A DNA stretch of 64,000 nt, from contig DASXVE010000034.1 of the NCBI GenBank assembly GCA_036504445.1, forward strand, positions 186,001 to 250,000, written 5' to 3'. How positions within the stretch are numbered: the stretch's first letter is position 1; each line of letters opens with the position of its first letter. This document shows positions 21,968-23,571 of the stretch, in pieces. The stretch is from Candidatus Aquicultor sp. (GTDB lineage: Bacteria > Actinomycetota > Aquicultoria > Aquicultorales > Aquicultoraceae). Position numbers and translations under genes: made by a program. The notes under the pieces were generated by a model. The model searched no databases and was not told the origin of the DNA. It saw only the letters and a program-made list of their open reading frames with translations.

Positions 21968-21991
21968 TAACAGAAACCAGGAGGATTGGGC

Positions 21992-22204
21992 ATGGAAGAG
22001 CAAGCCTTTGCGCTCATGCTACGACAAGTACTCACAGAGTATGATTTCGATGCTATCGAAATTACAGAGAACCGAGCTCACGTTGCACTTAAGCGAGAAG
22101 TCTTTACCGACACCAGTAATGACAACCTTGCCGAATACGATTTCTCCAACCCCGTGCTTGTTGAAGTACTGCAATTCCTTAAAACGTATTTACCAGCGCT
22201 CTAA
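21992..22204 (+). CDS. Small acidic protein, function unknown
   Basis: 70 residues from ATG 21992, 7 nt after a perfect AGGAGG. The sequence (MEEQAFALMLRQVLTEYDFD...) alternates helix- and strand-like stretches, has no cysteine, no membrane segment and no signal peptide. I do not recognise a family. The strong ribosome site and a following hairpin argue that it is expressed. Confidence 0.65.
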   Translation: MEEQAFALMLRQVLTEYDFDAIEITENRAHVALKREVFTDTSNDNLAEYDFSNPVLVEVLQFLKTYLPAL

Positions 22205-22230
22205 CGCCATAGCGATATCGCTATGGCGTT
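22203..22230. terminator. Perfect 28-bp palindrome between convergent genes
   Basis: The 28 bp are self-complementary throughout (centre GCGATATCGC). It lies between a plus-strand gene and the convergent lipoprotein gene. It lacks a long U tract on either side, so it may act as a bidirectional terminator with help or as a 3'-end stabiliser. Confidence 0.6.
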
Positions 22231-22268: not shown

Positions 22269-22934
22269 TTATTTTGGGCTAACCAGCTTAAAGCTTTTTA
22301 CAATTGCCCCGGCGGTCTTTTGTTCTGATTTCACCGCATTACCGAGCAAGTATATGTGAGCATCAAAAGCGTGGCCGTGGTTAATGAATTCGACCCTGTA
22401 ATGCAGCCAATTATTCTTAACCGACCATTTCTTGAGGATCTTTGCGCGTTGTTTTTTAGGAAACTTGCTCAAGTCAGACGTGATCTTAAACGACGAATTC
22501 TTAAATATCTCGGGGTTGCCATACGGTTTGGTGGATGATGTAAGTTTGCTTTTACTCGCCTTGCCTATATCACCGGCATCCATAACAAACATATAGACGC
22601 CGTCTTCCGGCAGCTTATTGACTACGAGGCCACCGCCATCGTGGATGAGCTCGCTGCGCACAATCGGTTTTACCCAATAATTAACTTTGTCGAGATTGTT
22701 AACCGAAATAACACCCTTGCCCCCGAACCCATCGATCTCGCCGCCGTTGGTTGCAACAGTCCAATCAGACGGGTACGTGAAGCTGAAATCCTTGTCTTTA
22801 AATTCCGTCATGGATATCTTGTCGTTACCGACTTTGATAGTGGTTTTTTTGCCTGAGTTAGAGCTAGAACCGGAACACGATACTAGCGCGAGTGTGACTA
22901 AGATAGCCATACATGCGATTACCATTCTTTTCAA
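22269..22934 (-). CDS. Secreted lipoprotein, PsbP/DcrB-like fold
   Basis: 221 residues starting with TTG 22934 after AAGGAGG. A type II signal peptide ends in the lipobox LVSC (Cys20), followed by a Ser-rich linker. The mature domain begins FSFTYPSDWTVAT, the opening pattern of the Mog1/PsbP/DcrB-like group of small periplasmic or lipid-anchored proteins. The ligand is unknown. No neighbouring gene on this strand is close enough to suggest an operon. Confidence 0.75.
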   Translation of the reverse strand: MKRMVIACMAILVTLALVSCSGSSSNSGKKTTIKVGNDKISMTEFKDKDFSFTYPSDWTVATNGGEIDGFGGKGVISVNNLDKVNYWVKPIVRSELIHDGGGLVVNKLPEDGVYMFVMDAGDIGKASKSKLTSSTKPYGNPEIFKNSSFKITSDLSKFPKKQRAKILKKWSVKNNWLHYRVEFINHGHAFDAHIYLLGNAVKSEQKTAGAIVKSFKLVSPK

Positions 22935-23148
22935 AGCTGCCTCCTTAACTTCGATGACTGCTACATTACTTGGTATACGAAAGAGGGGATACCATACTGC
23001 CGAGTATTTAAAACTAGGCTAAAAGCTTCGCCCTATTCTAGCATGGAGTGATAATTATTGGTATAAACTATGGCTTGCTTAACAGCTTTGAAATGTGTTT
23101 TTGATCCTATGAATCGGGAAGGCACTCTAGTACGAACGGATAGGTGAT
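22935..23148. other. Intergenic region upstream of the lipoprotein gene
   Basis: No gene is visible. It should hold the minus-strand promoter of the lipoprotein, but I cannot pick a convincing -35/-10 pair. The rest of the 430-bp gap, 23149-23303, holds a promoter-RNA-terminator unit. Confidence 0.4.
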
Positions 23149-23177
23149 TTGCAAAAATATTTTTGTAAAAATACTAA
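23149..23177 (+). promoter_or_regulatory. Promoter of a candidate small RNA
   Basis: TTGCAA at 23149-23154, a 17-nt spacer, and TACTAA at 23172-23177. The palindrome CAAAAATATTTTTG (23152-23165) overlaps the -35 and spacer and could be an operator. A second -10 candidate, TACTAT, is at 23183-23188. Confidence 0.5.
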
Positions 23178-23183
23178 AGTCGT

Positions 23184-23303
23184 ACTATAGGAGCGCCGAT
23201 ATTCAGATTGTCAGCCAAGACGGGATAAGTAGAAGAAAAACTTCTAGGTCGTGGCAGACGCCTTGACTGACAAGAAAAGTCCCACCCTAGGGTGGGACTT
23301 TTT
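23184..23303 (+). ncRNA. Candidate stand-alone structured small RNA, class unassigned
   Basis: About 120 nt between a promoter and a strong terminator, with no reading frame. An outer stem pairs TTGTCAG (23208-23214) with CTGACAA (23267-23273). Inside it, GCCA-A-GAC pairs with GTC-G-TGGC, and TAGAAG/CTTCTA closes an AAAAA loop (23230-23246). It ends in the terminator at 23275-23303. It is convergent with the cold-shock gene. I found no match to tmRNA, SRP RNA, RNase P or a riboswitch class that I know. Confidence 0.5.
23275..23303. terminator. Strong bidirectional terminator
   Basis: AAAAGTCCCACCC and GGGTGGGACTTTT are perfectly complementary around TA, with T runs on both strands. It serves the candidate small RNA on the plus strand and probably the cold-shock gene on the minus strand. 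Confidence 0.9.
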
Positions 23304-23364
23304 AGTTTTTAAAACCGCCTCTTTGTATTGCAAGGTGGTTTATTTTGTTAGGGTGTATCTGAGA

Positions 23365-23571
23365 CTACCTAACGATCGTAACATTGGATGCGCGAGCGCC
23401 TTTAGCCTCCATCTCAATGTCGAATTCGACAGCTGTTCCTTCATCGAGGGTCTTAAAGCCATCGCCGGAGATAGCTGAGAAATGAACGAACACGTCCGGA
23501 CCGCCATCATCCTGAGCGATAAAACCAAAGCCCTTGGAATTGTCGAACCACTTTACTGTGCCTTTAGCCAA
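23365..23571 (-). CDS. Cold-shock protein (CspA family RNA chaperone)
   Basis: Single-domain OB-fold protein of 68 residues that binds single-stranded RNA and DNA. RNP1 is KGFGFIAQ and RNP2 is VFVHFSAI, both intact. The start is TTG 23571 (MAKGTVKWF) after AGGAGGTGA. A promoter at 23715-23743 would give a leader of about 135 nt, a length typical of cold-shock mRNAs whose leaders control translation by temperature. Confidence 0.96.

Follow-up and report, generated by a model that had tools for sequence, protein, structure and literature searches.

Does the intergenic stretch at positions 23149-23303 hold an RNA gene of its own and, if so, which sigma factor would transcribe it and on what would the RNA act? 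The stretch lies in a window of 64,000 nucleotides from a Candidatus Aquicultor genome, and an earlier note on it had proposed an orphan small RNA of about 120 nt facing a cold-shock gene. That observation is now partly confirmed and its interpretation partly supported. A genuine small RNA gene of about 100 bases is strongly supported by comparative analysis, because the element is kept in all 11 genomes of the family, has a covarying stem and carries its own promoter and terminator. The predicted RNA occupies 23207-23303 on the plus strand, its 5' end placed from the position of the promoter and its 3' end from the terminator; it is shorter than first proposed, about 97-100 nt, and is preceded by a promoter of the sigma-28 type. 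A folded body (23207-23273) is followed by the terminator, and the unit, as predicted from sequence, has both signals of its own and lies outside any known mRNA, as expected of an intergenic small RNA.

The RNA is a candidate for a new family, not catalogued before, for which a control element has also been identified. It matches no Rfam family: at gathering score, Rfam 15 finds three tRNAs and nothing else in the window and has no match in 12 loci that hold other copies, and matches at E values up to 10 are weak and fall mostly on the terminator or the region of the cold-shock gene (csp). Nor is it described in the accessible parts of the literature on sigma-28-dependent sRNAs, Aquicultor, WhiG together with small RNA, merRNA, RsiG/WhiG and actinobacterial structured RNA motifs (including PMC8325347 and PMC10746217).

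Conservation and genomic context

The family, made up of uncultured actinobacteria, is Ca. Aquicultoraceae of the class Ca. Aquicultoria, Actinomycetota (NCBI taxonomy), which includes Ca. Aquicultor primus and secundus. A DNA search matched all ten other family genomes with E values of 1e-10 to 1e-15; outside the family, nothing in the genomes searched matched at better than 0.001. A pattern scan across 84,980 named species, with one genome per species, returned 12 stretches, none outside the family. The first covariance model, built on 14 copies, recovered copies in 11/11 family genomes together with two diverged extra copies, and marginal hits in one non-family genome among 36 genomes of the class. 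The second (R2, 16 copies), run on 396 genomes of the phylum, found the 11 family genomes and one marginal hit; model matches on the reverse strand of the same places were excluded from the copy counts. Two genomes with marginal scores, G017 (21.9 and 21.8 bits, and no match with the second model under stricter filters) and G157 (25.9 bits), were treated as chance matches. G011, from the same order, matched neither model, and a viral contig that matches the DNA pattern was set aside, the second model finding no fold there. Among the 396 phylum genomes the RNA thus appears nowhere convincingly outside the family. Across 28 pairs from eight of the ten copies at the first locus described below, the core averages 0.82 identity, the promoter 0.63 and the terminator 0.62, and the flanks fall to 0.53 upstream and 0.52 downstream, against 0.51 in shuffled sequence.

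The copies occupy two syntenic places. At locus A, downstream of nuoN, the RNA is found in the window genome and in G001, G002, G003, G004, G005, G007, G008, G009 and G010. At locus B, between accA and a gene for a HAMP-GAF-GAF-SpoIIE sensor (domains from a Pfam scan of one genome, G008), it is found in G003, G005, G006, G008 and G010, with diverged copies in G004 and G007, in which the GGUCG part of the core has changed; in G001, G002, G009 and the window genome this locus was found to have no copy. A TATAAT-like sequence lies upstream of each of the diverged copies (L063:1501-1580 in G007 and L064:1501-1583 in G004), in place of the sigma-28-type promoter that they have lost.

The cold-shock gene is indeed there, convergent to the RNA on the minus strand at 23368-23571 (Pfam CSD, 4.9e-29), but the facing arrangement is incidental, because the neighbours on that side differ between genomes. 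A second hairpin with a T-rich end, on the minus strand at 23309-23341, adjoins the RNA terminator and is probably the csp terminator. On the other side, nuoN is followed in most locus-A genomes by a small ORF of some 70 aa (21986-22201 in the window, where it has no Pfam match), after which comes directly in the window a perfect palindrome (22203-22230), probably the terminator of the nuo operon. A lipoprotein-like gene on the minus strand (22272-22934; a weak PsbP_2 match below the cut-off) lies between the nuo genes and the RNA and was not seen in the listed locus-A neighbourhoods of relatives.

These neighbourhoods bear on whether the element could be a cis-acting leader or riboswitch-like attenuator, its fold deciding on termination ahead of the gene that follows, in origin the SpoIIE-type sensor gene of locus B. 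Seven copies do lie between accA and that gene on the same strand, and the terminator directly follows the fold. However, the next gene in the window is convergent, the locus-A copies have varied or convergent neighbours, and the same-strand sensor occurs at locus B only, so that the copies share no conserved same-strand downstream gene. Moreover, a TTGACT/GATAAT-like promoter (by eye) stands between the locus-B terminator and the sensor gene, and one also precedes the sensor gene in G001, G002 and G009, which have no RNA there. As no same-strand gene lies behind the window RNA and the locus-A neighbours vary, action in cis is unlikely, and we regard the leader as a very improbable explanation.

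Fold and terminator

The body is closed by stem P1, whose 5' strand at 23208-23214 pairs with 23267-23273, and continues in stem P2, in which CAAG (23216-23219) pairs with CUUG (23262-23265); the 3' strands of both lie within 23262-23273. Inside them lie an apical hairpin, UAGAAG-loop-CUUCUA (23230-23246), and the conserved core strand GGUCGUGGCAGA (23247-23258), which is a candidate binding site or else part of a small third hairpin, GUC-GUGGCA-GAC. All of these elements are on the plus strand. Counts refer to alignment A4, which holds 16 of the 17 copies; L041, whose core does not differ from that of L040, was for this reason not taken into alignments A2-A4.

Conserved pairing is present among the relatives and no match to a known mRNA appeared, so that on these two counts the proposed RNA gene is not refuted. 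In P1, six of the seven pairs show changes on both sides that keep the pairing among the 16 copies, and for the structure as a whole covariation scores 0.222, compared with 0.124 in shuffles, none of 500 of which scored as high; sliding the partner strand lowers the score to at most 0.086. P2 is invariant in 16/16 sequences and is therefore silent for or against pairing, no covariation test being possible. In the apical hairpin a U-A pair is changed to C-G in 6/16, and the loop, 5 nt in the window, is longer in most relatives. UGGCA is invariant in the core of all 16.

Folding energies agree with the nested stem of the earlier note, which is better than chance: the stretch with its terminator folds at -42.7 kcal/mol (z -3.96; 0/200 shuffles as good) and the body without it at -20.1 kcal/mol (z -2.99; 2/200). 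Single-sequence folding of six close copies beats shuffles only moderately (z -2.7 to -3.6). The inner fold is ambiguous between three roughly equal alternatives, namely ACG/CGU pairing, an extension of P2 by CG/CG, and the third hairpin. The diverged copy L063 breaks the ACG/CGU pairing and retains the other two; alone, it folds as a three-way junction (z -5.40). A CsrB-type sponge for CsrA is defined by several conserved GGA loops, a pattern not seen here, where GGA occurs in the core of 7/16 aligned sequences (by eye).

The strong terminator is likewise borne out. It spans 23274-23308 on the plus strand, with a stem of 13 pairs at 23274-23303 and then a T-rich run, and a terminator-like hairpin follows the core in 17/17 copies. 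Stem and terminator of the proposed complete gene therefore stand as described, whereas the promoter named with them does not.

Promoter and palindrome

The promoter originally proposed, TTGTAA-17-TATAGG, is present in the window but agrees with the consensus at 8/12, a score that 1196 of 4818 background stretches (25%) reach; it is not conserved and was not among the hits of the consensus scan. We therefore rejected this sigma-70 promoter as a background-level match. Instead, a -35 element TAAAG at 23175-23179 is followed after 15 nt by a -10 element GCCGATA at 23195-23201, both on the plus strand. TAAAG is intact in 13 of the 15 close copies (TAAAA in one and TCAAG in another), and TAAAG-N14/15-GCCGATA is matched at 10/12 or better in all 15, a level that 43 of 4818 size-matched background stretches reach. 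The geometry is fixed as well: in 14 of these copies the -10 element ends 8 nt before P1, and in one 12 nt before it. The two diverged locus-B copies (G004 and G007) lack the motif, scoring 7/12.

Judged by its letters, TAAAG-N14/15-GCCGATA is the signature of FliA/WhiG (sigma-28) promoters, the form of the E. coli sigma-28 promoter having served for the same comparison. The FliA promoter of Bdellovibrio is given as TTAAG-N16-CCGATA (PMC3627812). A transcript from such a promoter would be expected to start around 23207-23209, where the base of P1 lies.

A chance fold with a stray terminator and no function would fit the number of promoter-like matches between 22500 and 24000, which is at chance level (three found, 2.7 expected). 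It is contradicted by the family-wide conservation, the covariation and the fixed promoter distance, and we consider it extremely improbable.

A palindrome had been described as overlapping the -35 element and suggesting regulation. The palindrome is real: TTTGCAAAAAT/ATTTTTGTAAA at 23148-23169 is imperfect, matching at 10/11 positions, and its score is reached by 1% of 200 shuffles. Since the -35 element is at 23175-23179, the palindrome lies just upstream of it and not over it. It occurs in the window only, none of the 16 other copies having better than 8/11, and was rejected as an operator for want of conservation.

Sigma-28-type sites and the sigma factor

The window genome contains 21 perfect TAAAG-N14/15-GCCGATA sites, against one for the reversed pattern used as a control. 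Of the 20 sites other than that of the RNA, ten precede a same-strand ORF of 200 aa or more by no more than 350 nt; the others fall within a reading frame or opposite one, precede a short frame, or could not be assigned. Pfam was run on the ten downstream proteins and on one frame around a site. The ten comprise two GGDEF proteins, one PAS-GAF-SpoIIE phosphatase, one 4HB_MCP protein, two SLH proteins, one protein each with BON, CAP and acyltransferase domains, and one with carboxypeptidase-regulatory and PEGA domains. The RNA would thus seem to share its promoter type with motility, surface and signalling genes. One perfect site, in L107, was rejected as a promoter: it is inside a reading frame with no Pfam match, and closely similar sites recur in several family genomes, so that it is probably coding. 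As such matches recur, the pattern counts include some coding matches.

A FliA/WhiG-family factor scoring at least 282 bits is present in 11/11 family genomes, and TIGR02479 exceeds its cut-off in 37 of 40 genomes, these 11 included. The RNA is restricted to one family, though WhiG-type factors occur in most of the class. WhiG passes the NCBIfam equivalog cut-off in each of three genomes scanned for it, G001, G004 and that of the window, and in G004 and G001 whiG lies between xerC-like and rpsB-like genes (names by eye). The window genome has a second sigma factor near flhA, which fails the WhiG cut-off (281.6 against 343).

Which of the two would act on the RNA is suggested by G001, which has neither an FlhA nor a flagellin match and yet retains the RNA, a 12/12 promoter and WhiG. 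WhiG would therefore suffice and is the likelier sigma factor, although FliA could serve in flagellated genomes. Flagellin is also unmatched in G005 and G008, both with FlhA, so its absence alone is weak evidence. The motif of RsiG gave no hits in 193 sequences totalling 0.76 Mb, a part of the genomes. A stretch like GCGATCGCATCC..AGAGC..TA recurs ahead of the start of whiG in all five relatives inspected (L134, L136, L139, L146 and L147) and might be a regulatory site or leader.

Mode of action

The reading that we favour, with moderate confidence, is a free-standing structured RNA under sigma-28/WhiG control that acts in trans, its invariant GGUCGUGGCAG core most likely serving to bind a protein or ligand. 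Transcription would be started at the base of P1 by a FliA/WhiG-group sigma factor, most likely WhiG; the RNA would fold into P1, P2, the apical hairpin and the invariant core and end at its own terminator. Having a promoter type in common with signalling and surface genes, it would then act in trans. The rigid core would most likely bind a protein or small ligand, leading to titration or allosteric control, and would less likely be an exposed, unstructured pairing seed. Binding is favoured because the inner stems and the core strand, the most conserved parts, are nearly fixed while the apical loop and the outer stem vary. The same conservation of stem and loop could also reflect a base-pairing RNA with a structured seed. 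Further points that count against the favoured reading are the ambiguous inner fold, the only moderate advantage of single sequences over shuffles, the restriction to one family although WhiG-type factors are widespread in the class, the possible use of FliA in flagellated genomes, and the promoter missing from both diverged copies.

Pairing with mRNAs through the GGUCGUGGCAG strand, in the manner of MotR and FliX of E. coli or CjNC1 and CjNC4 of Campylobacter, is the alternative of most weight, possible but doubtful. Known sigma-28-dependent sRNAs of these two bacteria are reported, in the portions of those studies available, to pair with mRNAs, and the core strand does not vary and is mostly unpaired in two of the three inner folds. 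One target candidate recurs: an orthologous secreted-protein gene is matched in G003 (three times) and G006, both of one genus, although about 290-420 nt inside the frame. Against this, exact complements of the core strand, the RNA gene excluded, number 12 in eight family genomes, three of them in one repeat of G003, versus seven for the reversed control; of ten complement loci inspected, most fall within the coding sequences of unrelated genes. With 12 gene starts and five whiG starts the core strand forms duplexes of unremarkable energy (lowest shuffle fraction 20/200), and the stems are conserved as much as the core strand. These small tests by exact complement and duplex energy gave no convincing target. 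Hfq was matched in 0/13 genomes, with control genomes positive in 5/14, which does not fit an Hfq-dependent pairing sRNA.

The RNA could also be a sponge for a second messenger or another small ligand, like merRNA of Bdellovibrio but with a fold of its own. Its free-standing, structured nature, its invariant core and the lack of a following gene in the window would suit this, as would the GGDEF proteins within the sigma-28-type set; with no Rfam riboswitch match, we think it unlikely.

Comparison with known systems

CjNC1 and CjNC4 of Campylobacter resemble the Aquicultor RNA in being paralogous small RNA genes under sigma-28 control, and their action on reporters is Hfq-independent (PMC4626219); the Aquicultor genomes, for their part, have no Hfq match. 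They differ in that 37 of 44 nt are identical between them and mRNA targets were predicted (PMC4626219), whereas the Aquicultor RNA has a conserved fold and no target was found; the likeness implies no homology. UhpU, MotR, FliX and FlgO of E. coli are also controlled by sigma-28 together with motility genes (PMC10578931), but are described there as UTR-derived, whereas the Aquicultor RNA gene is free-standing, has a promoter to itself and occurs in genomes that gave no Hfq match. In Bdellovibrio, three attack-phase sRNAs are marked with FliA promoters, and FliA also controls cell-surface and chemotaxis genes (PMC3627812). merRNA of the same organism is likewise a free-standing structured RNA, but it holds a c-di-GMP riboswitch and is not marked with a FliA promoter in the accessible part of that study (PMC3627812), whereas no Rfam riboswitch is found in the Aquicultor RNA.

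Among actinobacteria, dgc/pde genes of Rubrobacter have been suggested, in the accessible text, to carry sigma-28-type sites, and Aquicultor has WhiG as well as such sites at GGDEF genes. The accessible accounts of the RsiG/WhiG switch name no RNA in it, and the 0.76 Mb of sequence noted above gave no RsiG motif. As a speculative extension of rather low probability, the RNA might be an output arm of the actinobacterial WhiG switch: a fall in c-di-GMP would release WhiG, and the core of the RNA would capture a protein or nucleotide, feeding back on the choice between motile and sessile life.

If that extension were true, the RNA would be a structured one that acts in trans under WhiG control and binds by a fold not known before. 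The work offers a candidate RNA family, with its control element, in Ca. Aquicultoria, a class for which the literature searched holds no RNA study, and the invariant UGGCA core makes the binding partner directly testable. That the RNA is kept in G001, where the two flagellar markers are missing, suggests that it may belong to a wider lifestyle program under sigma-28/WhiG and not to the flagellum itself.
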